DNA of 52,683 nucleotides, taken from NCBI GenBank assembly GCA_015146655.1, contig VKHL01000179.1:1-52683 (forward strand). Direction: 5' to 3'. Positions within the stretch are counted from its first letter, which is position 1. The number at the start of each line of letters is the position of its first letter. Positions 19,993-46,729 of this stretch are shown in pieces. The DNA comes from Ochromonas danica (Eukaryota > Sar > Chrysophyceae > Chromulinales > Chromulinaceae). A program made the translations under genes and the position numbers. The notes under the pieces were generated by a model. It worked only from the letters and a program-made list of their open reading frames with translations. It made no database searches and was not told the origin of the DNA.

Positions 19993-22540
19993 CTAGCTTC
20001 CTTCGTAAAATGCATCCCAAAACGCTTGACTTTCCTCACCAGACCTGAAGAAAACAACAACACATCAGTCGAGAACATTGAGAGCATAATAGAAAATCTC
20101 ACATGTCAATGGTGACATCACTGCCAAGCAGGCTCGAGCCTACCAGTTGCGGACAGGCAACATCTCCGGGTCGAACACGTGCTGCCCACTTCAGCAGACG
20201 GGCGCAAAGCGGTCGTTGCTGGTCATCGAGCGCAATTTGCTGCTGCGCAAAGGGAAAAGAAAGACCTGCTCGCAGATGGTGGCGTCCATTGGATACAAGT
20301 AATAAAAATATTTCCTTCTCGTCCAAGTCATCGTCGTCGTAGACGCCAAGAGCAGACCACTCGAAGCAACTGCCACCTCCTGGCAAAGCTGTCTCTCGCG
20401 CTACGAAAAGCTTCGGTCGCACCAGATATGATGCCACATCAACAGGAGAGATCACGGAAGAAGACTGTTGAATTGACGTTGGTCGTATCTGTGTCCGAAG
20501 AGAAGAACGAGCGGTGCTGCTAGTGCTACCCTGAGAAAGGTCACTGGCTCGCTCTTCTAACACTACCGAAGGGGTGCTCGATAGGAGCGGCAAAAGCGGT
20601 AGAACACTGCGTTTAGGAGGAGAGGTATCGGCAGCACCCGAAAGGTGCGGTTGCGGCAAAGTGTTGATACGCGGCCCGGCTAAAGCACCACTTCCTCCAC
20701 CAAAGGGACGCCTCAAAGAACTATTGGAAGTCGGCGGGCTTATGGGGGCATGCGGAGTGAGCGAACCGGCATTATCATCAGTTGTAGATGCAACGGGACG
20801 AACTTGTGCATTTGCAAAGTCTGGAGTAATCGAACTATGAGCTGAAGGTCTGCTTCCCTTTGCAAGGTGTGGCGTGTTGCTTATATCGATATTGAAGGCT
20901 GAAGAAGAGGAAGGAGTGCCGATGGCAGCACTTGAGATAATTGAAGAAACGCGCTCCAAAATGTCTTGACCAGACACTGTCCGTTGAATCGAAATAGTGC
21001 CATTTGAGCTGCCCGCGGCTGTGAGAGGAATACTACTGCAATTTCCACTCTCAGGGAGTAGGATGGAGGCGACAGAGCGCGTCGACCTCATGGACTCGCC
21101 CTCCTGATCTGTTACTCCGCTCCATATGCTACTGGAGGTCGTGCGTGGCAGATGGGATTGGACAGGCGGCAGCGCAAGCAAGCCAGAGTGGGCATTGCTG
21201 CCCTGAGAAGATCGTCCAGTTTCACGCTGTCCCAAGTTGTTGAGGATTTTTGGAAGTGTGCCAGTCGCAGACTCCAAAGTCGCCAAAGCCTCTTCTGCAT
21301 AGCTTGCGGCCACAATTGGGGTGGAAGAGCATGGCGCGAGGTCGAAGTAGTCGTCAAATGCTGTGCATTCCTCAACTTCAGCTGCAGTATACGGCCGGTC
21401 AAGCAACAGAAAGGAGCGGAATAGATCGTCCTCGCTGCCCTGCAGGACCTTCAGGAGAGGAGCGGAAGCCGAGGCGAAGACTCGACGCATTTGTAGAGCC
21501 AGTCGCTCACCCAAAGCATAAGCTTCCTCGCTTGCGGCCTGCCCTCGCCAGAGAAAAAGGTAGTGCCGGCCATCGCGCACTCCGCGCAATACGAAGATCG
21601 CCTGCGGGTGGAGAAGGGAGAGCGCTGGCACCAACAGGCGGCGAGACTTCTGATGGCGACAGACCTTCAACACAGCTGTGCGCGGATCGTGTGCCCCATG
21701 GAATGCCAAACGAAATAGGAGATCGGCTTCTCGTGCCGCGCCATGGAAGATCTCTCCCAGCTCAACGAGGTTGCACGTGAAGGCAATGTTCGGAGAGCAG
21801 ATGCGGCGGCGCTCCTTGACGAAGTCATAGGCAGCCTTCCACTTCTCGGCGGCTGACCACATCCGATAAGCGATTGCGAGGGCACAGGACCTGGAGACAC
21901 CCTTCTCGCAGTGCATCAAGACTTTCTCTCCTCGATCCACGCCCTCTTGAACGAAATGAATGGCCTGGCAGACGAACCACGAGATGTCCTCCTGTCGACC
22001 ATCTAGCAGGTCAAGGCTGAGGTATGTCATGCCTGCGCATCCCTCGTGATAGTTGGGGGTGACGGACAGCGCACAGTTCAGAATGCGCGTGATCTCCTTC
22101 TCACGCAAGAGTTCCAAATTCTCCGCGACGCGCTGTCCGCCCACGAAGAGAAACTTCGTGATCTGGGAGCATTCATATTCACAATCCGACAGAGACTCGC
22201 GCCGCAACTGGCCTTCCGTGAACTGGAAGTCTGACGGCGGGAATGCGGTGGTGGTTGAGGAGGCGGAGGTCAAGGCCGCTGCGGCCGCAACAACAAGGGG
22301 ATCAGCCGCAGAACTGGCCGTGGAGACAGCCTCACTCTGCCCCTGTGTCTGTCTCTGCTCCTGCTTCTCCGCAGATGGAGCAGGAGAGACGGCAGCGGGT
22401 GGCTTCCTCTTGCGCGAAGACGGTCGGAAGCTGTTCTCCGAGGGCGGCGCGCTGGTGGGCGGGAAAGGCACCACGGACTGGAATTCTTTGGTTTTGCTGC
22501 CAGCAACTGCTTTGCCGTAAATTAACGCTGCATTTCCCAT
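19993..22540 (-). CDS. dual-specificity phosphatase with gelsolin-like segments, plant MKP1 type
   Basis: Two exons (22540-20103 and 20044-19993) give about 829 residues. Residues 125-270 are a dual-specificity phosphatase domain with the P-loop HCEKGVSRSC (Cys211, Arg217) and a general-acid candidate in LDLLDGRQ near residue 180. It is followed by a gelsolin-like segment (about 275-400: PQAIFVLRGVRDGRHYLFLWRG), a long Ser/Thr/Pro-rich linker, and a second gelsolin-like end (about 700-829). The short last exon supplies a typical end, ESQAFWDAFYEGS. This order is that of plant MKP1, which dephosphorylates stress MAP kinases, so the same role is inferred. The ATG at 22540 (MGNAALIYG) is the first in frame; Gly2 leaves weak room for myristoylation. 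The gene is convergent with family copy 4. Confidence 0.88.
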
Positions 22541-22876
22541 TATTTTCTACAGAGAGGAAAACCTAAAGAGCATTTTCAGACGGAAAGCAAATAGTCTGTC
22601 ACTTGTCTAGTCAGTACAAGTAGTCACTGTGATGGTTATGCTATGCGGTCGAACAGCCAGAGAGCGCAACAGCCTCGCCTCTTAAAACCATGAAAAAGGG
22701 AGTTTAAATTAACTTTTAGCAAAATGGCGGAACAGAAGAAGCGAAGACGGAGTTGGGTAGTGCCGAGCACTCCATGGATTCCATGGATTCCACCTTCCCC
22801 TTCATTGTCATCACAAATACTAGCAGGAACCTAGTCTACAGCTGTGAAGGCTCTGTACTGTAGACGCCAAGTCTCC
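22541..22876. promoter_or_regulatory. intergenic stretch upstream of the MKP1-like gene with TCCATGGATT repeats
   Basis: No coding region. It contains two tandem TCCATGGATT units at 22771-22790. It should hold the promoter of the MKP1-like gene and the 3' UTR of the methyltransferase-like gene. Confidence 0.45.
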
Positions 22877-25604: not shown

Positions 25605-28600
25605 TTATGGTTCCTTGGATTCCTGTAAATGCGCCGAGTCTTCTTCTTTGCTCTCACCCTCGTCGTAAAAGAGTCCACCATCACGTCCTTCGAACATGGC
25701 AAAGAAGGGTGAAAAGCTGCCTTCGAAGGGATATCCGAGATCGATGCGAGCAGTGGACGGTCTAGAAGGTGGTTCGCCACCAGATAAGGAACTCGCCATG
25801 GCATTTGAGGTGGTTGGCTTCCAAAGCCCGTTGGAAACCAGTAGATAGGCTTCGAGAGCATCAGCCAAGCCATCACCACGCAGCAAGAAGGGGTCTGCTG
25901 GGAGGATATCAGTGCCCCATCGCCGCTCAGAGACCAGCGGACCAAGTGCCGCACCTTTGCGTCGAAGAGCGGGCGAACGCACAGCCGCTTGAAGCAAAAG
26001 ATCTAGAGGGCTAAGGGTCGTTTGTGCAGAGCCACCGGGATCGCGCAGGCGCGAGACTAAACCAAAGAGACTTGCGGCTCCACTCCGCCGGTTCGATCCG
26101 CTCACTCCGCTGAGAGACAGGAGTGGGTGACTGGCAAGAGACACTCCAGACGAAGCGCTACTACCGGCCCCATCACCCCCTCTCCGTCGAGAGATAGACA
26201 GCGTGACCGCGCCAGTATTACCGTCCACGCGAGAAAAGGAAGCATTAATTCGCGCCATGGGCGCTTCTCCGTCCACAGGCATGATCGACGAGACAAGTTG
26301 CTCCAGGAAATGTTGTCCGGGTCCTCCCACAGCTCCTCCGCCGCCACCACTCACCATTTGCACACCTTCATTCCCTGTGACTACTCGCCGCGTGCCGAGC
26401 GCATCACCAATTATGGCTGTGGCGAAATTGCCAGGAGCAGAGGAAAATATATTGAGATTAGCAAAGGCTGGCTCGCCATGGGCACTACCAACCCTTCTCC
26501 GCCGCAGATTGTTGTCACCCGAGCTGTGTCCGCGCACCCGCACTCGGCCAGAAGATCCACCACCCAGATTGAGCATGGATCCCATGTCCATGTCCATTTC
26601 CGATGACAATCCATTGAAGAAAGACTGCGGAGCCGAGGCCGAGGCACTATCCTCTTCATCAAATCCTGCAAATCAATGGATCTTATTAAAACGCCATTGA
26701 AAGAATGAATAAAACATCCTCACCTGCTGAAGTTGCTCCAGGAAAGCGAATGAGCTCTTCTTCCTCATCCTCATCCTCTTCTTCCTCGTTCGCCACTAAT
26801 CAAGGTAGGATCAGTTAGCACGATTTTGCACATGAGGACTGAACACTTACTATCTTCCCACACATCATCTCCCTCTTCATCCTCTTCCTCAATCTGGTCG
26901 TCTCGGTCCTCTTCCCGCTCTCCATCAGCATTTTGCTCTTCTAAATGATCGGATGCAGAAACAATGCCTTGATCATTCTCCTCCTCCTCCTCCATGTCTT
27001 CTTCCTCCTCCTCATCTAATCAGAAAGCAAACATGATCCCAGTCAGCGTTAAGATGAGACCCAGCAGAAAACTAAATGTCTTACCCATTCCCAACTCCAA
27101 CTCTTCCGCTTCTTCCCGCTCCCCCTCTGAATCCTCTTGGTGAACATCCAAGTCCATATCATCGCGCTCTTCTTCGTCATCGTCATCGTCGTCTTCCTCT
27201 TGTTCTTCATCTCCATTGTCACTTTCATCGTGTTCTTCCATCTCTTCTTCTTCTTCGTGATAATCACCTTCTTCTTCCTCCTCTTCTTCGCTTCCTTCGC
27301 TTTCGCCAACACTGTCTTGACGATCTCTATGCAAACCTTCTTCGTCTTCCTCCATATCCCCCAGCACTCCATCATCAGCATAGATGTCCAAGCCTGATCG
27401 ATTACCTTCATCATCTTCATTCTCATCTTGATCCTCCTCACGATCGTAATCAGAGTCTACTATATCTAGCTCATGATGAGAGCGCGTACTATTGCGCTGA
27501 ACAGGCTGTGGCAATAAATGAGCATAGTCTCCCTCTTCGGTGGTGGCTGGTGGCACAGAAGGAACATTAGAGACGGTAGCAGCCACCACAGCAGCTGCGG
27601 TTGAAGAAGGTGCCGATGGCGACACCGCTGGAAGGCTATGGGCTGCAAGAACTGCACTCCCAGTTCTTGGCTCCACCGAAACAGATCCAGTTCCAGCTTG
27701 TGTGGACGTCGAGGGGCGCGAATTAACTGCTTGTACTTGCACACGCAAACTGCGGCGAGTGAGCACATCCAAGGCAGCGCATAGCGCGGAACGACAAACC
27801 GCTATGGCTGTTTCATACTCTGTATTACCGCCAAAACCTGGAAGAGGTAAAGCAGTAATAGTGGCTACTACACGGGGCACAGCACACAAGGAGGTGCATA
27901 GAAGATGATGTAGATCCGTGACCGGTAGAAGGAAAGTCTCTCTCGCCGCCCATTGTCTCGGAGGGTGTAAAAGCGAACAAAGAGTCTCCGCAAAGCAAGC
28001 CAGTCGACGCAGTTGAGAAAAGGATGGACCAGTAGCACCAGTCTCATTGTCCTCACCGTTGAGAGCTACCAATTCAGTACAACGCTGCAGATATGTCCCA
28101 AGGATATCTCTTCGCATCATTCCAGGTCGAGAACAAAGGGCGGCAAACAGGTAACACGCACGATCGAAAGCTGCAGTTCCCAGCACTGCACCCAAGAGAT
28201 CATCTTCTTCTCCCTCCTTTTCACCCTTTTCCTTCTCCTGCGAAGAGAGAGGACTATTTGCGAGCAAATTTGCATTCTTCTCGCGAGATGATAGCTCATA
28301 AGTAAGTGGCAATATTTCGTCAAGGAAAAGGTGCAGGAAGGAAGTACTGTTAGGAGTGACTCTCTTCTCCAGCATGTGTTCATTGTCACATTCCATAGGT
28401 GGAGATATTGTCAGAAGCCATTCTTCCGAACGCAGAGTTGGGATGGGCTGATTTGGATATTGGAGTCGCAAGGTTTGCAAAGCACGACCAGCGGTGGGTT
28501 GTGCGCTAACAAGATCGGCGAGCAAAAGTAATGAATCCGAGAGCCGCCAAGTTGAAAAGGTCGACAAAACCTCTTTCACTTTCACTTTGCTGTTTGCTTG

Positions 28601-31600
28601 CCCACTGACAGAAGAGCAAGCAGTGACGGCCAGAAGACTCCGCACAGCGATTTGCTGGACAATGATCCCCAACACTGAATGTAAAATCCCCCCTGAAGTA
28701 CCAACTTGCGGTGAAATGGAGGCGGTTGTTGTTTGGCTGCCACCCATTTGTCCACTGAGGCGAGGTCGCTTCATGCTGCGTGATACTGGAGAAGCGGTGG
28801 GATTGGAATGACTGCGAGATCGAACTTGCCCCACCTCCTGCTGATGCTGCGAACTCTCACCCTCTTCGGCAACGATCGGCAATGACGATTTCTCATTTTG
28901 TTGACTTGCTTGAGTTTGGGACAAAGGGGTCTTAAGGCGTAGCATGAGGACAGGTTGTTGAGTGTTGCCAGTGTTGCTGCGAAGTGAAGGCCGATCTACC
29001 TCGAAGTGAAACGTTGCTTGAAGCGCTTGAAGAAATAAAAGAGGATCTCTTTGAACAAGCGGCCTAACTCCTTCTAATAAAGCTCGAAAATCCATGCGCA
29101 AGTTTTCGCGACTGGTGGCGGTACCCGAAGAAGTACTGGAAGCCACACTGAGCCTGTGGAAAGCAAGACGCAAGGTGGTATTCATATGTGTAAGCACAGC
29201 GGAAGGCTCCTCGAGAGCACGTTGAAACAAACTACTCAGAAGTGGCAATAGCGCAGCCCTTGGAGTTTGGGTGAACGAGTTTTTCAACAGTAACGCAAAG
29301 TTGCTGGACGTAGCCGAGGTCGATGAGGCAAGAAAGTTTTGTCTCACTGCCTCCGAGGTGAGAAGGTGGTGAAGAAGGGCATATGTTGCATGCAACAGCT
29401 CTCCACCAGTTGCCTTTCCCACACGAAGTGATGGAGAAGAAAAGTTGCGCAAGATTCTAAGCGCGATATCAAGGGCTTGTAGGCGTTGCTTTTCGCTTAG
29501 GCAGCCGAGAAGGAAAGGAAGAGGTACATCTGCCATCTTCTCCTCGGTTTTGATTCCATCTTGTCCCATTGTCCACGGGTTTTTTTGACGTTCTTCTTCG
29601 GATAAATCCGCGGGGAGAAAAGTCTTTGCAATCTCATGTTTTAATTCAATTGATACTAGACCAGATGGCCAAGCTTGCAGTGCCTGTAAGTCATTGATAA
29701 ATGTTCTTTGATTCTCCGCATCGCGCAGAAAAGTCCGTAACCGCAGGGGACTGACGAATATTGGCTGACAAACTAGGGCAAGATAAAGCATGGATGCAGT
29801 GAGCCAATTGCAATCTCTATCTTCTAGATCCCAACAGCCAGCTGTACGTGACAGCAATAAGTCCAAAAGACTCTGCAGCCCCCGTTGCCAGCGCTCATCC
29901 ATTGCCAGGAGCAAGAAATGTAATTCAGCAGCCTGCACTTCAGGTCGATTAGATCCTGTGCGTAGAAGCGTGTTGTTTCCTTGTGATGGGATAGCACGAC
30001 TATGCAATAATAGAGCCAATGCCTGCAGGGGTCCAGCAAGCTGCTCCGCACGGGATTTTTCGCACAAGGAAAGCAGCCGAGCTTGCAGCCAACTCATAGG
30101 GACAAGGCGTAATGAGACATCCGAGAGTTGATACTTATCTAGCACACGAACCACGGCCTGCAGCATATACGACACGGACGATGAACATGACGCCTCGGAC
30201 CGATTATCGTCGATGCTACTTTCTTCCAACGAAGTGAGGGAAGTGTTACCTCCAATACTTGTCGTATCAGATGATCGCACACAGCAGTGGATAAAAAGCA
30301 GGGGCAAAAGTGGATAGAGACCAAGAAGGGCTTTTGCCACAAGATCTTTAACACGCCGCAGCTCCGTCTCAGTGCGGCGTGCCATTGCAGGCAGTTTAAA
30401 CAGAATAACAGCGGGAGTTGGCCCGGCTGCATCAACTGAAGAAGGTCCTGCGGGAGCATTAACCCCATCATTACTGGAGGAGCTAACAGTTATTTCAGCT
30501 CTATCTCGATTCGCTTCAGAAGAAGTGCCAGAACTGAAGCTGTTCCCATTATCATGATTTTGAACGTTTGGAGGAGCCGCTTCCGGAGCCGATGAGTTAT
30601 TGGTTCTATTGCTATTGCCATGAGTTGACTGCCTCTCCAACGTTTCGAGCATGAATGCATTTTCCAGAAGGAACTGTGCGAGTGCATTTGCATCATTGCT
30701 TCCAGAGAGGGTCATTGCGCGAACAATTAGGTTTCGCTCAAAGCCCATGTCTCGCAACAATGCTACCGTCGCTTCATTCACAACAAATTGCGAAGGTCCA
30801 GAAGAGCCCGAAGAAGGTACGGGTTGCGATTGAGATAATCCAGTGTTGGCAGTTACTACACCTGCACCATTAGAAGGCCCGTTAATCCCAGTTTCAGGTA
30901 TTGAGGAAGCACTACGCATCGCTTGTGCACGCTCACGAAGCATTACTGGGCGCTGCCGCATTACGGACAATAAATTGCCATCCATGGCTCCACCAGAAGT
31001 GGATGAAGTTGAAGGCGCAACAAGACGAATGGGTTGGCCTTTGGTGGCGTCTTGCAAAGCACGCATTGAGCACACCATCAAATCAACAAGACAGCGCTGG
31101 AGGTCCGCAGGCAATGAAGCGAGATCGCGATGCGCCCACAACAACGGCATGTATCGCGAAAGCAACAATAAATAGCGACGCCTCGTGTAGAATGGGTCAT
31201 AGAAAGTACCTTCTCCGTGAACTGGAGCAGAAGTGCAGAAATGTAATCCTCGCTCAAGAACACTGACTTGAGAAGATAGTGAAACAAAAAACAGTCTCAA
31301 GAAGTTTACGACCACTTCGAGATTTGCCCTTGCGAACTGCTGGCGCTCACGAAGAAGAGAGCGATATTTCAAGTAGCGAAGAATACAATCAAGAGGAGGA
31401 GAAGCTGCGTGTTGCGATATGAGAATACCATAGGCTTCGGCATCCCCCATCTCCTCGCCAATCAACTCCCAGCCAGGAGGGAACGTGACTTCCGCTTGAA
31501 ATCGAGCAAGCGCTGGGTTAGAAAGGGAAAGGGGGGAATAAAGGCAACCGCAAATAAGGACAGTACCCCACAGTAGCTCATGCCAAAAATTACTTTGGGC

Positions 31601-34600
31601 CTCAGCTCCATCCTCCTGAAGAAGCCTCAATAGCAGAATTATATTTATTTCAGACTCTCGACTGCCTCGCCGCTGCTGGAGAGAAGTGGCATCAAATAGT
31701 AGCGTCTGAAGAAGCTCCAAGGAGCGCAAGTAACGATAAAGTACATCGATCGAGCACTCGCAATAAGTAGGAAGATAGGCAGAAGGAAGCTCATCCATTT
31801 GGGCAAAGCACTTTACACCAAAGCCAGGAACTGATGAATCAATCGACATAAAGAAATAATGCGCAAGCTCTTGCTGAAGAGAGTCGCTTGCTATGCGGTC
31901 CAAACAAACTGAAGAGGCAGAGGAGGTGGAACACAGGCGGCCTACAAGATCAAGTACCTCCTCTTCGCTATTAAGAACTGACCCTGAGTTCTGATATGGT
32001 TTGCAAGAGAAAAACACAGGAGGCTGGCTCGGCAAAGTAGCGCTAAGGAGGCGTAGGAGTGGTAAAGTCATTTCGTTAGCAATAAAGCGCGCGTGCGCCC
32101 CTTCTGCGGTCCATCCATACGATCCAGCCAGCTCTCCTGGCAATGCAAACAACGCTTGCAATCCACCTGGAGGCGTCTGAGGCTTGGAGAGGAAGGCCTT
32201 GGTGAGAGTTTGAAGAACGAAAAGCTCAACAGTGTTGTACAGATGGAAACAAGCCAAAAAACCAGCACGTCGCACCGAGACACCAGCAACTTTCTCTAAC
32301 TCACTGCGCTTGCGCGGATCTTTGCGAACGAGGGTTAAAACAGCTTGAGCCTCCCTTTCCAGAGCCTCTGGAGTTTTGCGCTCTAGAGCTAGGACTAGAA
32401 CCTGAGGCTCAGGGGAAGAAGCGCTCTTATACACTGAGATCCAGCATCCATCTTCCAATTCATATTTCAGGCTATTTTGATTGTTGCTATTGTTTGCATT
32501 GACGGTATTACTTCCACCGTCTTTTTGGCTTGAAGTAGGTAGCAATGGACTGCCAAGACAGCGCGAAGTTGCTCGCAATAACTGACCTTTGTAGACACGG
32601 TAAACTTTACGAGCACTGTCTTCGGGGCCAGCACGTGCACTCACTTGGTCAGCGAGCACCATGAGAACATAAATGGGTTGCAAGGAAACAGGAGACGGGG
32701 TGGCCAATTCGACGGCTGAAGGCAGCAGATGTTCCAACACTCCCTCTCCCGTACTAGTCTGACTCGTTCGAGCAGTGTCCCTCAGGGATACCATCACATC
32801 AGAAGAGAGATCAAAAATATTTAATGGCGTCTTCAGCGTTAGAACAGCTTTAGCATTTGCAAGTTCTGCTTGAATAGGAATAAGCACATGGGTGATGATT
32901 TGCTCCAGAAGTTTCACAGCATCTGCAGCTCGTTCAACACTATCTACTGTTTGGAAGACTCGCTTATTAGCTGAGCTTGGGGAAGAAGTCCTCGCAAAGT
33001 GGGGAAGGCCCACGTCCGGACCAGCTACGATTAAGCCCCAGATTTCAAGGTTGGAGGCAAGTGCAGCACAAGCAGACAATAGATCTGCAAGCGCACGCAA
33101 CTGGGGTGGCATTGCTACTTCAACGGAATCCAGATGAGCAGGAAGGAGATTGTGCAATGGTTCGCGCGGAAGAGATTCTAGAAGACCTGCAAAAGGACTC
33201 TCATCAATGCTTTTATCGACACCATTTGCAGATCCCGTCTTGCAAATATAGTTGCATCGATAGTCGAAAGCTTTATCACGAAGATCTTTGAGTTGGCCGT
33301 TGAGATAGAGCAGAGACGCATCCCACAGAGAGTTTGGCGCAGACTCACAGATGTTGGTCAGAATATGGAGCAGTGCGGACTTGGCTGGTATATATCCCAA
33401 TGTATGAAGGGTCTGATCAGTCATGCAAGCAAGCGCAGCCAGAAGGCTACCTCGAGGCCCCAGCGTTCGCCGACTGAGACCTAATAACAAGTCCAACCCC
33501 CCACCTGCTTGCCACGCTGCGATGACTGGACCACGTACAAGTACACTCTCACAAAGACCAAGTACACACTCCAGCTGCCACAACAGACGAACATACTTGG
33601 CATGATCAATCCAAAAAAGTGGTTCTCGCTCATCTTGGCTTTCAGACAAGCCTACCGCCACACCTAAGTCAGCGTATACAGACCGCAATGCACCTAATAA
33701 ACCATCCACAACCGGTTGGATATACGCAGGAAAATGACGAACTATCTCCTCAAGAGCACTGCCAAGGTTTCCAACAAGATCACCATGCAGGCAAAGACGA
33801 CTATGTGGCAGGTAATAATCGGGATCTAACACAACCGAAGTGATAATCATGTGAAGGGCTTGGGATTGGAGGACGAACTGCAGGCCTGCCTCTGTGATCG
33901 AGAGCGCAGAGAGTAAATGCATATAACACAGAGAGAAATCGCTTTTCAGTAAAACCTTCGCTTGCAGGGGACGCAAAAGAAGACAGTCAAGTAATGCCAA
34001 TCCATGCGCCTCTTCTGCACAAAGCACGTAATTTACCATCGTTGGTGGCGCGGAGTCCCGTTGGAGGACTTCTACAAGCAAAGAGAGCGCGGAGATGAGA
34101 ACTGTGTGGCTGAACAGCTCATAAGCGGAGAAGATATTGTAGAAAAGCTCGAGAAACGTGCGAGAACGAAAGAGAACCTGCAAACCATTGTCAGCACTCT
34201 CGGGCCGGCCTTCTTGGATGTAAGACAGCATTAGCGAGAGCAGCTCTTCAATGTAGATATTCGTTTCACTTCCCACCAACTGATTGCTGTTGCGAGGAAA
34301 GGGTAGAGTGTGGATAGGCAAACTGTAGGAATCCGTCACACGATTAGTTTCGAAGAGCAAGCGATCGAAGACAACCTCCACACCGTTGAGCTCTCGAAAT
34401 ATAGTCGCAGCCCCACTGTGATGAATAAGGATGGTCTCGAGGAGTTCAGAAAGCGCACAGCCCGCGAAGACGACTGGAGCAGTTCGAAGAGGCACTCGCC
34501 GAACAACTTCCCCGCCATCAACTTCTTGCTTCTCTTTCGACTGGAGAGATATAAATTGCAATAAAATATCTACACATCCTCCATCAACAAGAGAAGGCAC

Positions 34601-36185
34601 CACAGAAACTGGAGAGTTTGACAAGCCAAGAAGAAACGCAGCAAGACTCTCAAGACAAAGTAATCCCAAGACCTCTTCTTCTTCTTCAACTGCTCCTGGC
34701 AGACTCTCTAGCACCAGAAGACGTTCCACATAGCCGCGCAACAAACCAGGAATGGACCCCAGGTACTGTCCTCGCTGCAATCCAAGAGCATGAAGAAGCC
34801 AAGGCTGTCGCAAAGATAAAGGTGGACCGAAATCTCTGGCCTCACTCAAGCCCTCCAATGCTGAGCACGCCAATCGATAGGTTGTGTAGCGCTCTTTGGA
34901 AGTGCCCACATATAAAGCTGAGCTCCGAACAGCATCAGCAGTCGCATACGGTGGATTGACAATGACTTCAACTAGTCCAGCCAGAACCATTACCCTTTCT
35001 TGGAGGAAGGATGAAAGCACGTGCTGATGAGGATAAGCATGCACAATCAATGCAAGAATTTGATGATAAACAGCCTGCGAGGAACCCATACTTCTCCAGT
35101 AATGCATGCGCAACTGCCACAATAATACGCGCAACTGCCAACCATTCCAGCCTTCAGGAGAGATGCGACGAAGTGCCCACAACTTATACAAGTCAGCTTG
35201 AATGTCCATAGCAGAAATAGAAAAGCTCTGAGCGTGTGTAGTCGGCGATGAGGAGGCGAAAAGCCAATTAATCGTTCCACTTCCTAACCCATCGGACTGA
35301 GCTAAAGAGTGGACAGGGCGTTCAATACAGATAAGCCCATCGTGGCTGGGATTAATTGCATGGAAATGGCAAAGGAGAGCATCGAAGAGAAGAGAGAACT
35401 GCTGCGCAGGCGGTTGCTTTTGCAGAGCAGTACTGTGCCGTTTAACAAAGTGTTCACTACGATGCGATTGAGGAGGTAGCGCCAACTCCACAAGGCAATC
35501 CAGCGAACAGCGAACAAGATTTTCATCGAATGCGTCTAGAAGACGGAGCAAGTGCTGTGTATGACGTGAAGTTAGCAGCCACCGAAAGTCAAGCGATGAG
35601 TAAGCACAATTCTCTCACCTCGCACGACTGATACGCATCCTTCCCGACGCACTTCGATAGGAGGGATTGGGTGAAGGCCAAGATGGAGAGGAGGCGGCTC
35701 TTGTCCAAGGCGTCATTGAGCTCATAGGACTCTGCCACAGGCTCAGGAATCCCATCAGCAGGTAGGAGCCAATATCGGCCGTACATGGAAAGGTAACGCT
35801 CCAAGAAAGAGTCCAGAATATTCAGAACTTTGGTCCAATCGCTCAGTTGAGTCTGAGAAGGAGAAGAGTGGGCAATGAGGGTGAGACAAGACATACAGGA
35901 ATGCCAAGCAAAAGAAAATCATGGCTTTTGAAGGCTGTGACGAGCGAATAAACTTACCATGTGGTGGAATGGCAGAGGAGTGAGGCGTTGTAGTTGGCTG
36001 AAGAACGCCGCCTCGTCCTCATTTTCCTTCGATACATTTATCAGACATGTGATCACCTCAAACTCAACATCTCCAGGGGAGGTTGAAAGCGGTTCATCAA
36101 TATCTTGTCCGGAAATTTTCATGACGAAATGGATTGGACGAGCATTGAGAGATTGATTGTCCAATTGGGCAGGACAGTGAGGCAT
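25605..36185 (-). CDS. giant HUWE1/UPL1/Tom1-type protein lacking the HECT domain
   Basis: Six exons (36185-35958, 35852-35619, 35554-27085, 27015-26851, 26795-26724, 26665-25605) give about 3409 residues. The N-terminus resembles UPL1/HUWE1 (armadillo-like DUF908 and DUF913 regions, for example WTKVLNILDSFLERYL and ESLAAFLLGLSNSPVSV). A UBA domain lies at about 1744-1786 (VALLRDMGFERNLIVRAM). Residues 2855-3050 are extremely acidic, as before the DUF4414-like region of HUWE1. The last exon has HPLLSLSG and SERRWGTDILPADPFLL, which resemble the segment following it. The frame then stops; no HECT domain or its catalytic Cys follows, and the next gene starts within 500 bp. The family's members are ubiquitin ligases, so this protein would need a partner for catalysis. 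The start at 36185 is the first in-frame ATG; 36122 is an alternative. Confidence 0.85.
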
Positions 36186-41995: not shown

Positions 41996-44900
41996 CTACA
42001 CATAAACACCGCCAAAGTCTTCCAAGAATGATCGCAACGCGTCGGGATCCAAGATGGACTCATCTGGTAAGGGTAGTGCAGTCAACACCTCTTGAACTCC
42101 TTGGGGATGTAAGACAAGGTAGGGCAGGTAGTAGTGAAGTACCATTTCATCCACTCCGTAGAGATTGATAGCGTTGGTACAGCCCGTTAAAATCAGCTGC
42201 AACACGAAGCGAATTTCATCATCAGCACTAAAAAGAGTGATTCCATGGTCTGAAGCATTGCATTGCTCAGTCACTTGCTTTTTTATTAAGTGAGCGAGGT
42301 GGGCGATCAAGCTTTTATGGAAAGTTCTTTCGCGAAGGAGGAGGAGTGCAAATTGCAAGGAGGCTTCAGCGGGGACCACAGGGGGTAATGGAGATCGCAC
42401 GCCACCGCCCTGTGATTGGACAGTTCTGGCAGCTGCCTGCACGCCCGATGAAGGATGAGATGAAAATGGAAGCACGTTAGTCGATGCGATGGTAGGGGTT
42501 AGAGCTATTTCTGGTTGGATGCAAATTTCTGAAGAAGCATTTGCAGGGGCAGTAGGCGGGCAGACAGCGCGAACCTCGTCTTTCTCTTCTATTGGTTCCT
42601 CGATGGGAGTAGAACGGTTCAATGTTGAAGAATGGGATGATTGTTGAATATGCTCAGGGGGCAAAACCACTTCGGAAGCACCTTCAGCCTTCTGCTCTCC
42701 CAGTGCCAAACGAGCATTCTGCCCCGTTAACTTCCATGCGAACGCTAGCCGAGCTGCTGCCTGAATAACATTAGCAAAGAATAACAAATAAGAAATGCAA
42801 AATGCCATTTCAAACTTGATAGTCTGAGTAAAAACTCACTTTGTGTATAGGTGAGCCTATAGGTTGAAAAAGCAAATGATTCTTCGCCACCTGCACGAGA
42901 TCGTCTTCAAATTTATCCAAATTGGGATATTTGCCCCGGTCTATTTTGACTCGCATTGTGGTAAAATCCATGGGTCTCTCACAAACAGCCAAATATTCGG
43001 GATTGGAAATCTTGAGAGAAAAAAGAAACACACGTGAGCAACTTGAAAGGAAACATTGAGGAGAAACTTACAGGCGCTGCGAAATGCTTTTCTTTGTCCA
43101 CAACTTCGTGGAAATATTTCCAACAACGTTTAAGTACTACTGTAAGAGTTCCTGGCGGGGATGACAGTTCTGCAACAGAAGGGATAGAGGGAAGGACCAA
43201 TTTCTCGAGTTCTTGCTCATTGGCACATTTGGCAGAGGAATAGAGCCCGCGCTCTGCAGCACGACGAAATACTGCCATAGCGATCTTCGTCTCTTCATCA
43301 AGACCATCATCTTCCTCCTGCTCCTGTTCCATTTGTTGATTCGCGGACTGTAAGACTGTTGCACTGAGATTAGCGTTTGTTGCATTGCACGAGTCCACAG
43401 AGAAAACAGGCGAAGGAGCCGGAGGCAACGGAGGAACGTTAGTGTCAACACGACTTTTCTTCGAAGAAGCCAAGGTTTCCACAGGTTCACCACCTTGAAT
43501 CACCGAAGGAGCCTTTCGCTTCTTAGTAGCACTTGCAGCCTTGGATTGGATAATTAGAAGAGTTTGACTAACCGCTGCTTTGAAGAAGATCCATTTTAGA
43601 AGGAAGCGCATCGCCATTCGGGAAAAAGGAGCGTGAAACGTATTAAACGTGAAGCAATTGTTGAAAATTAAGACGACGTCTGCATGGAAGTCATCGAGGC
43701 TGTGATAGGCTCTTTGGGTGGCCTTCTTGCGCATGACCGAGATGGCCATCTTGTTCTTTATCACAGAGCTGTAATCTGGGGCCTCACGATCAGAAACAAC
43801 CTGACTGAAAGTATGATCGTGATCAGCTTTAGCTAGAAAGTCACAACAGAGCAAATAAATGCCCTCCTGCCCAGAAGATAAACGCATTCGACCTTCCTCG
43901 GACTCGAGCAGCTTTACCAGAGCTATCTCGTTTCGCAGGGTTCTTGCGTAGCGTTCAGAGACTGGGATATTCTCCGCAGTATTGGATTGGTTGACTTTAA
44001 GATCAATGCAGATGTCCTTCCACAGCTGCTCCAGACAGTTTCCGTACTAGACAAACCAGAGTTTTGCTAATAGGGAAGCAGATACAAATTTTGAGATTCG
44101 TTAGCATAACATACCGTTTCAAAGGGTCGTTTCTTGTTGAACAGCCGACAATTGTCAAACATCAAAGTCACGTCATTGTTGAACTCAGCAACAGACTTGT
44201 AAATCCCAGCATCAATTTTCTTGCGCATGGTCGCGAGGTCTATGGGGCGCTTGACGACTTTGAAGTAATCGGAGAAATCTGGATCCACCTGAAACATCGC
44301 GAAATCTACTCGTTAATCAACAAGTCCACAAATTCCAAGTGTGGCTATTATCTGTACCGGCTCACGAAAAATCTCGGCCCCGTCTAGGTCGTAAAGGACT
44401 TGCCAAGCCTGCTTTATCCCATCTGGTCCCGCCAAGAATGCAGAAGGGAGCTTTTCTGCAGGAGGGACAGACGAAGGCGGCTGCGAGACGGCTGAAGTGG
44501 TAGGAGCTGAAGATTGAGAAGGAGGAGGAGCGCTGGAAAAGCTCTTCAGTCGCCGAAACGAATCGCTATCTTTCCACGCCAAGTAAATACGCTCTCCTTC
44601 CTATACCATTACCATTACTAAATCAGAACAGAAACCCAAAGCAAAAGTTACGGGTGATCGACGCGCACCTTAGTCTCAGGGGCGTCTTTTCCATGTTTGG
44701 TTTTGAGGTCACGCAGCATGAGTTTCAAATCTCGGTCGAAGTCCTCAAACCCTTTATATGTTCCTATCCTTATTCTCTCCTTAAGCACCATTATGTCGAT
44801 ATCTTTCGTAGACTGTGCAAAGATCTTTTTTGCATCAAGCTTGAAGATTGTCTTCCAAGCGTTGGCAAGTTCCTTCATCAGCTGCACACTCTCTTCACCT

Positions 44901-46729
44901 GAAGAGGGCGTCTCTTTCTGCGGTTGTTGATGCTGGCTTTGGGCTTGAGGAGGGGGTTGTGGCACAACAACCACTTTTGCCACTGTGGAAGGCTTCGATA
45001 CATTTGTCGCAGCAGATGGCATTGGCGAAGGCTTCGTCTCTTTCACTTTCGCAACCGTCTCTTTCGCTTTTCCAACAGCTGCCGCACCAGCTGTAGCATT
45101 GCTAGGAGAATTGAAGATTTTAGGCTTTTGCTTTGTATACTGAGCATATACTTTGTCCGCATGCAAGGCAAAGGGAGAGGCATCTCCATTAAAGACGTGA
45201 CAATTGCGCACCATGAGCTGTAGATCTCGCTCGAAGTCCTCTGACAGATTTTGTTAACCAAGCGGAAACTAAATCATCAAATTGGGTGAGCAAATACTTA
45301 CCAATAGAGCTATACACGCCTTTATCGGTCTTTTTCCTGATAGTGGAAAGGTCCATGGGGTGGCGGATGCGCGCAAAGTACCCTGGGGCAATGTCTTCGG
45401 TAACAGGCTGGTAGAAGAGACGCAGGGTGTCTGCTTTGAAGAGCACATCCAAAGCAGCCCGCAGAGACTATCACACAAAACACATGCCCAGAACACAGTT
45501 ATGACACTCTTCAAGAGGCAATCAGAATACGCTTCCTTCTATAGAAGACACGCCAACCTTCGCACTCGGCTTGGTCGAAATCACAGTCGCCTTGTCATTT
45601 GAGTTAGCTCCCGCAGATGATAGAGATGATTCATTCTTTTGGTTTTGAGCTAAGCTCTGTCGTTGATCGGCAGCCGCTTGAGCTACAATGAGACTCTTGA
45701 GAAGGGCATGCAATGAGGCGATTGCGGTTGCATCCACACGACCTTGCCGTTGACATCTCGCCACAAGGCTGGCCGCATCATGGAGCTTTTCAAAGGCTGC
45801 CATCTGTGAGTTGAATAGGCAAAGCGGTTGTCAGCAAACGAAGAAAACAAACGGGAAATAAGAATCACCTTGGAGCCAGTCTCTTGCAAGGCCAACAGGA
45901 CCTTTACCAGCAGGCAACCTGTATTTCCCTTACGCTCCACGCAAACTTGAACGCAATGCATGGCAAACGACTTGAAGAGACCTTCCGACTGCCCAATCAT
46001 CTCACAAATGGCAGTCACCACGGCTTCACTTCGCGGTTCTCCATGCACGAGATCGAAGCGAGGATCACGAAGAGCTTCGAAGAAGGACTCTCGATTCATC
46101 TCCCAAGCTTGTCTCCGAACAACCAGCGGGAGTTCCTACAGTAGGACAAGAGGATGCGAAGAGTTCGCCAGAGTCAACAACGCGACGAGGAGAATCAGAG
46201 AATGAGAGAATGAATGCTAATAGCAGTAATAATAGTAACACTAATAGTAGTAACACTGTACACCTAGTCTACTGTATTGTACTGTTTACTGTACCTGGAG
46301 CAGTCCTTTCTCGATCAGAAGCTTCAAATACTGAGGAGGAATATTGCTCAAGCGCTTAATGACCGAGAGCGGAATAATCTTGAGTTCCTTTAATGAGAGA
46401 AGAACCGCAGTTTCCTTCAGCAGCATTTGCAAGTGAGACTCGGGCAGGCGCATGACGACCAGCTCGATCTTCTCCTTGAGACTCTCAAAGAGACTCGTGT
46501 GCGCATCCAAATTACTAACCCCCAGAAAGGATAAAAACTGGAGCGCACAGTTGGAGGAGGCAAAGCCAAGAGAGAGCTCGCTCTGAAGTTTGTTGATCGC
46601 AGCCCAGGGGTCGGGCGAGGTGGCAAGAGACTTCTGAATCAGTCGCCGGCCCGGCTCATCCGTTCGCACTGCGTACTCTTTAAGTCGCTTGCTCAAACCG
46701 TTGCTTACCGCATCTAAATTGGAAGTCAT
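41996..46729 (-). CDS. NELF-B-like protein with five bromodomain-like modules replacing its middle
   Basis: Ten exons (46729-46295, 46135-45869, 45803-45558, 45467-45302, 45240-44669, 44600-44358, 44288-44115, 44046-43072, 43010-42840, 42760-41996) keep phase and give about 1337 residues. Residues 1-300 resemble NELF-B/COBRA1 (DPWAAINKLQSELS, LPESHLQMLLKETAVLL, ELPLVVRRQAWEMNRESFF, LHALLKSL). Five bromodomain-like modules follow: 317-415 (HPMDLSTIRKK, NCHVFN), 489-585 (degenerate), 615-720 (RPIDLATMRKK, NCRLFN), 763-860 (NCFTFN) and 995-1100 (RPMDFTTMRVK, with Gln where the acetyl-lysine-binding Asn should be). The end (about 1200-1310, SLIAHLAHLIKKQ, EIRFVLQLILTGC) aligns plausibly with the NELF-B C-terminus. 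NELF pauses RNA polymerase II, so the fusion would tie pausing to acetylated chromatin. The start at 46729 is the first in-frame ATG. Confidence 0.85.

Follow-up and report, generated by a model that had tools for sequence, protein, structure and literature searches.

Can a core subunit of the NELF complex make direct contact with acetylated chromatin? NELF-B helps hold RNA polymerase II (Pol II) near gene starts, bromodomains are readers of acetylated chromatin, and the usual connection between pausing and histone acetylation runs through separate proteins such as BET proteins and P-TEFb. To our knowledge, NELF-B of humans and other animals contains no bromodomain. The question is raised by a gene on contig VKHL01000179.1 of the chrysophyte Ochromonas danica (assembly GCA_015146655.1), whose 52,683 nucleotides form the window analysed here. 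The gene occupies 41996..46729 on the minus strand and encodes a protein of 1337 amino acids in which a NELF-B N-terminal module precedes five bromodomains; we refer to it as the fusion protein. What is new is a NELF-B with an added bromodomain array, a variant on known NELF-B. We consider it an even call that this protein, through its NELF-B module and bromodomains and together with NELF-C/D, acts as a core NELF subunit B that touches acetylated chromatin directly. If so, a NELF subunit with bromodomains in one chain would be a direct link between pausing and acetylation outside animals, and would exemplify a core complex gaining regulatory modules without NELF-E.

A prior issue is whether the two parts belong to a single gene. 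Its ten exons, stop included, lie on the minus strand at 46729-46295, 46135-45869, 45803-45558, 45467-45302, 45240-44669, 44600-44358, 44288-44115, 44046-43072, 43010-42840 and 42760-41996. Splicing the window sequence removes nine introns of 61-159 bp, all GT-AG, and keeps the frame throughout; the 4734-base span comprises 4014 coding bases, including the stop, and 720 intronic bases. The EukProt entry gene10198-11285_t consists of the same 1337 letters as the spliced product (identity checked). The same protein also derives from a single 4316-base contig, known from its database record only and bearing the source label 'lgn', which is unexplained there. This contig is shorter than the genomic span yet gives an uninterrupted protein, and is therefore intron-free. 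We read it as assembled complementary DNA, in which the ten exons appear joined in one spliced molecule. A merger of two adjacent genes, through a wrong gene model or a chimeric assembly, draws some support from intron 3 (45468..45557, minus strand, 90 bp), which marks the border where exons with NELF-B similarity end and bromodomain exons begin, and whose length is a multiple of three. We nevertheless find such a merger hardly credible, given that every splice site is GT-AG with the frame kept and that the 4316-base contig gives all 1337 residues, which would be impossible from genomic DNA with 720 intron bases. Intron 3 also contains in-frame stops, so its removal is required to make the fusion protein. 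A first-pass annotation of this stretch had given the same coordinates, ten in-phase exons and 1337 residues, and had proposed one transcript rather than two genes; the splicing and the identical EukProt protein bear out the former, and the intron-free contig supports the latter.

How secure is the NELF-B assignment? The secure module covers residues 32-165 (exons 1-2; 46076..46636, minus strand), which match residues 17-159 of human NELF-B (8uhg_V) with an expectation value (E) of 5.4e-9 in a phmmer search of the PDB. Up to E 1, that search returned 10 distinct sequences for the N-terminus, 6 of them NELF-B (E 5.4e-9 to 7.1e-6) and the remaining 4 ribosomal uS14, all at E >0.5. Alignment by hhalign with insect and human NELF-B places residues 29-272 collinear with NELF-B 16-290 (E 3.2e-9; 27% identity across 243 columns) and so adds a tentative extension, residues 166-272 (exons 2-3; 45690..46075, minus strand). 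The Smith-Waterman scores of residues 1-165 against the insect and human proteins (151 and 145) were each reached by 0 of 500 shuffles. PDB phmmer, hhalign and the shuffles all identify the N-terminal COBRA1 region of NELF-B, though Pfam COBRA1 stays below its cut-off. That shortfall and the 27% identity are what speaks for an N-terminus drawn from another helical-repeat family and merely resembling NELF-B. We judge this very improbable: other families all lie above E 0.5 in the PDB, no shuffle matches residues 1-165, and an insect NELF-B query recovers exon 1 alone in the genome.

The opposite end of the protein gives no such match. The C-terminal segment (residues 1214-1337; 41999..42370, minus strand) is predicted to be helical at low confidence and contains no Pfam family over cut-off; a structure model predicted without relatives reached a mean pLDDT (predicted local distance difference test) of 52.3, too poor to use. 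For residues 1190-1337, a PDB sequence search extended to E 5 lists no NELF-B, hhalign against NELF-B gives a probability of 0.4%, and the Smith-Waterman scores are equalled or exceeded by 102 (insect) and 238 (human) of 500 shuffles. For residues 1085-1337, a hidden Markov model of NELF-B scores lower than the best shuffles. The NELF-B profile in these tests was built from two sequences only, so a diverged NELF-B tail may be present. The first-pass annotation had assigned the C-terminus to NELF-B, a similarity that none of these four approaches detects; because some 150 C-terminal residues lack it, the accompanying picture of a NELF-B with its middle replaced and both ends kept is unproven. 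Read from sequence, the plain architecture is a NELF-B N-terminal module, a bromodomain array and a putatively helical tail of no recognised family.

Are the bromodomains likely to be readers? Pfam PF00439 finds five stretches in the whole protein (joint E 5.8e-79), in agreement with the five bromodomain-like modules initially proposed for its middle; scanned singly, 4 of the 5 exceed the cut-off of 21.7 bits and bromodomain 2 falls just under it. All lie on the minus strand. We aligned them with three other bromodomains picked from the same genome and read from this alignment the position of the asparagine that we take to be the acetyl-lysine contact residue. It is kept in bromodomain 1 (N389; residues 319-399, exons 4-5; 45158..45461; E 4.5e-21, 75.1 bits), bromodomain 3 (N694; residues 625-698, exons 6-7; 44124..44414; E 2.2e-21, 76.1 bits) and bromodomain 4 (N836; residues 770-837, exon 8; 43639..43842; E 1.5e-17, 63.8 bits). 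The degenerate bromodomain 2 (residues 517-564, exons 5-6; 44595..44806; E 2.9e-4, 21.2 bits) has His554 at this position and is missing most of the ZA loop, and bromodomain 5 (residues 1019-1086, exons 8-10; 42752..43095; E 2e-14, 53.7 bits) has Gln1075. Direct acetyl-lysine reading is plausible for the three of five modules that keep the key asparagine. The two modules without it, one of them also short of its ZA loop, fit a lineage-specific domain gain of little consequence, in which a working NELF-B would carry bromodomains that serve mainly as a scaffold or as weak binders. With three modules retaining the asparagine at 63.8 to 76.1 bits, we regard that account as quite unlikely.

All ten module pairs outscore every one of 200 shuffles, as bromodomains would; these scores are uninformative on the origin of the array. 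In the whole-protein Pfam scan, DUF7877 scores 44.5 bits (cut-off 27) at window positions 45209-45371, where it overlaps bromodomain 1, and it may be related to the bromodomain profile. Between bromodomains 4 and 5, a KKRK stretch at residue 876 may be a nuclear signal.

The array invites comparison with other multi-bromodomain proteins. Two of the five modules, 1 and 3, were searched against the PDB: the top match is polybromo-1 (PBRM1, of SWI/SNF), by a score summed over its own bromodomains, and TAF1 and BRD4 rank after it. PBRM1 has BAH and HMG domains, and the ET domain defines BET proteins, whose bromodomains are tied to elongation control; no BAH, HMG or ET domain is among the four Pfam families listed up to E 1 for the whole fusion protein. 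The fusion protein thus resembles PBRM1 in its bromodomain array and differs in lacking BAH and HMG from that listing and in carrying a NELF-B module. It is likewise akin to BRD4, one of the top-ranking PDB matches for those two modules, and unlike BET proteins in having no ET domain by Pfam; two ET places lie elsewhere in the genome. The double bromodomain of the TFIID subunit TAF1, high-scoring for module 1, offers a parallel for bromodomains within the general Pol II machinery. TAF1, however, belongs to an initiation factor, and its similarity to the fusion protein is seen in the bromodomains only.

If the protein is a NELF-B, does the genome supply a partner, and is there a second NELF-B? 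We searched all 31.2 Mb (337 contigs). An insect NELF-B query hit one place, exon 1 of the fusion gene (E 1.7e-6; one candidate past the first filter). The fusion protein itself hit 10 places inside its own gene and 11 elsewhere, ten of the latter over bromodomains, one over linker residues 880-1015 and none over residues 1-300. Within the reach of these searches, the fusion gene is the sole NELF-B-like locus in a genome that also has NELF-C/D. The NELF-C/D gene (G000:C154; L024, from 15154) encodes 865 residues by manual splicing, without transcript support. Its match to TH1 (E 8.8e-14) covers positions 12-221 of the 579 in the profile, and the same 1914-base exon carries an N-terminal WW domain (E 6.9e-9). 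Up to E 0.01, this main exon matches 13 PDB sequences, 7 of them NELF-C/D (E 2.3e-4 to 0.001) and the other 6 WW proteins, Prp40-type best. We know of no WW domain in animal NELF-C/D. Pfam NELF-A_N had no match in the whole genome; the COBRA1 profile likewise missed a gene that is present, so absence of NELF-A is not demonstrated by this search. The genome also contains an Spt5-NGN match and a p300-like KAT11 protein with TAZ, bromodomain and PHD.

These genomic data bear on a further account, that of a chromatin protein with several bromodomains and a polybromo-like use, which acquired the N-terminal module of NELF-B and no longer belongs to a pausing complex. Most of what can be recognised in the protein is bromodomain, polybromo-1 is the best PDB match as described above, and the C-terminal half of NELF-B is not recognisable, all of which lends this account some weight. 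It would, however, leave NELF-C/D without a partner, since the only NELF-B-like locus found is this one and NELF-C/D is kept; the lack of BAH and HMG in the Pfam listing also counts against it. We therefore rate it unlikely, though a stronger contender than a domain gain of little consequence.

We return to the reading in which the fusion protein is a NELF subunit. In mammalian cells, removal of the first 78 residues of NELFB reportedly leads to loss of NELFA and NELFC, and removal of its last 60 residues to loss of NELFE (PMC10591015). A second source describes NELF-B and C/D as a widespread core and limits strong NELF-E evidence to animals (PMC11482795). The fusion protein keeps the part expected to meet NELF-C/D, and the NELF-E-binding part is not recognisable. 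Like animal NELF-B/COBRA1 (human, PDB 7ycx and 8uhg), it has an N-terminal helical module and a NELF-C/D partner in the genome; human NELF-B has 580 residues, in contrast to 1337 with five bromodomains here. In mammals, NELF-E binding requires the C-terminal half of NELF-B (PMC10591015), which has no recognisable counterpart here.

The architecture, the spliced molecule, the single locus and the genome's NELF-C/D with its WW domain, Spt5, ET-domain and p300-like genes are what the data show; complex formation, acetyl-lysine binding, recruitment and any effect on pausing are inferred. Most likely, the fusion protein would be the B subunit of a minimal two-subunit NELF, B with C/D. Docking on NELF-C/D would fall to its N-terminal module, the NELF-C binder in mammals, and acetyl-lysines of promoter-proximal nucleosomes, or acetylated elongation factors, would be bound by bromodomains 1, 3 and 4. 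NELF would in this way be kept close to acetylated starts, and Pol II with it; proline-rich or polymerase-tail peptides may be contacted in addition through the WW domain of NELF-C/D. A bolder version is possible but more doubtful than not: the lineage's core NELF would be a chromatin reader in which the bromodomains of NELF-B and the WW domain of NELF-C/D read nucleosome acetylation and the polymerase tail directly, replacing animal-specific subunits such as NELF-E.

Several observations weigh against a NELF subunit that acts in pausing. Residues 165-316 are weak by themselves: in sets of 500 shuffles, 7 and 91 reach the Smith-Waterman score, which is why we limit the secure module to about residues 30-165; of the first ~300 residues originally ascribed to NELF-B, that part stands, the continuation to ~272 is tentative, and the full extent was too generous. 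Against a cut-off of 22 bits, Pfam COBRA1 reaches 18.0 with residues 1-287 and 14.9 with the full-length protein, and a COBRA1 search of the whole genome found nothing, the fusion gene itself included. Bromodomains 2 and 5 lack the acetyl-lysine asparagine. Between human NELF-B residues 158 and 196, 22 residues have no counterpart in the fusion protein; from its name alone, we take the mammalian NELFB mutant MT194 to lie near residue 194, that is, near this gap. NELF-C binding is reportedly lost in MT194 (PMC10591015). The same authors point out that NELFB and NELFC also occur in single-celled groups for which pausing is undocumented, and they describe a function of NELFB outside pausing (PMC10591015); a pausing role here is therefore not to be assumed. 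No relative with the same architecture turned up either, in searches that were blind to ordinary NELF-B too.

Those protein searches comprised three sets. A search of 5654 candidates of 735-2340 residues returned only the fusion protein itself, as did one among the 7997 best word-sharing candidates of about 601-1911 residues, a range outside which the ~580-residue NELF-B falls. Among the 7994 best word-sharing candidates of 279-887 residues, ordinary NELF-B lengths included, nothing appeared at E <= 1. Because these searches recover no ordinary NELF-B and so have no positive control, uniqueness of the fusion is not demonstrable from them. Among the entries listed for literature on NELF-B/COBRA1 with bromodomains, on NELF in stramenopiles and on bromodomain architecture in stramenopiles, none showed such a protein.

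Bromodomain matches in the genome number 28 when counted by exon, 4 of them in the fusion gene. One 2315-residue frame (L025:1048-7995) resembles MLL in combining a bromodomain with two PHD stretches, FYRN and FYRC. Another, of 1636 residues (L027:3953-8863), has three Pfam bromodomain stretches; the genome scan places four inside it and one just before.

The neighbours of the fusion gene are a CPSF160-like gene (CPSF_A matches) and a TRAPPC9-like gene, both on the plus strand. Elsewhere in the window, a 2864-residue frame at 27020-35614 carries DUF913 and is presumably HUWE1-like, and a frame at 20099-22546 carries a dual-specificity phosphatase domain. Chlorophyll-binding protein matches occur at 47 places in the genome, in keeping with an alga, perhaps an ochrophyte; a search with an 18S stretch gave no match. 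Four equal-scoring ones, spaced in 2407-base steps, form a tandem array (G000:C224:8673-16382). For one chlorophyll-binding match, the best PDB sequences are, in order, seven long LHCI chains of 9vfj (summed over repeats), XLH12 and VCPI-1, the last two of which we take to be xanthophyte and Nannochloropsis proteins.

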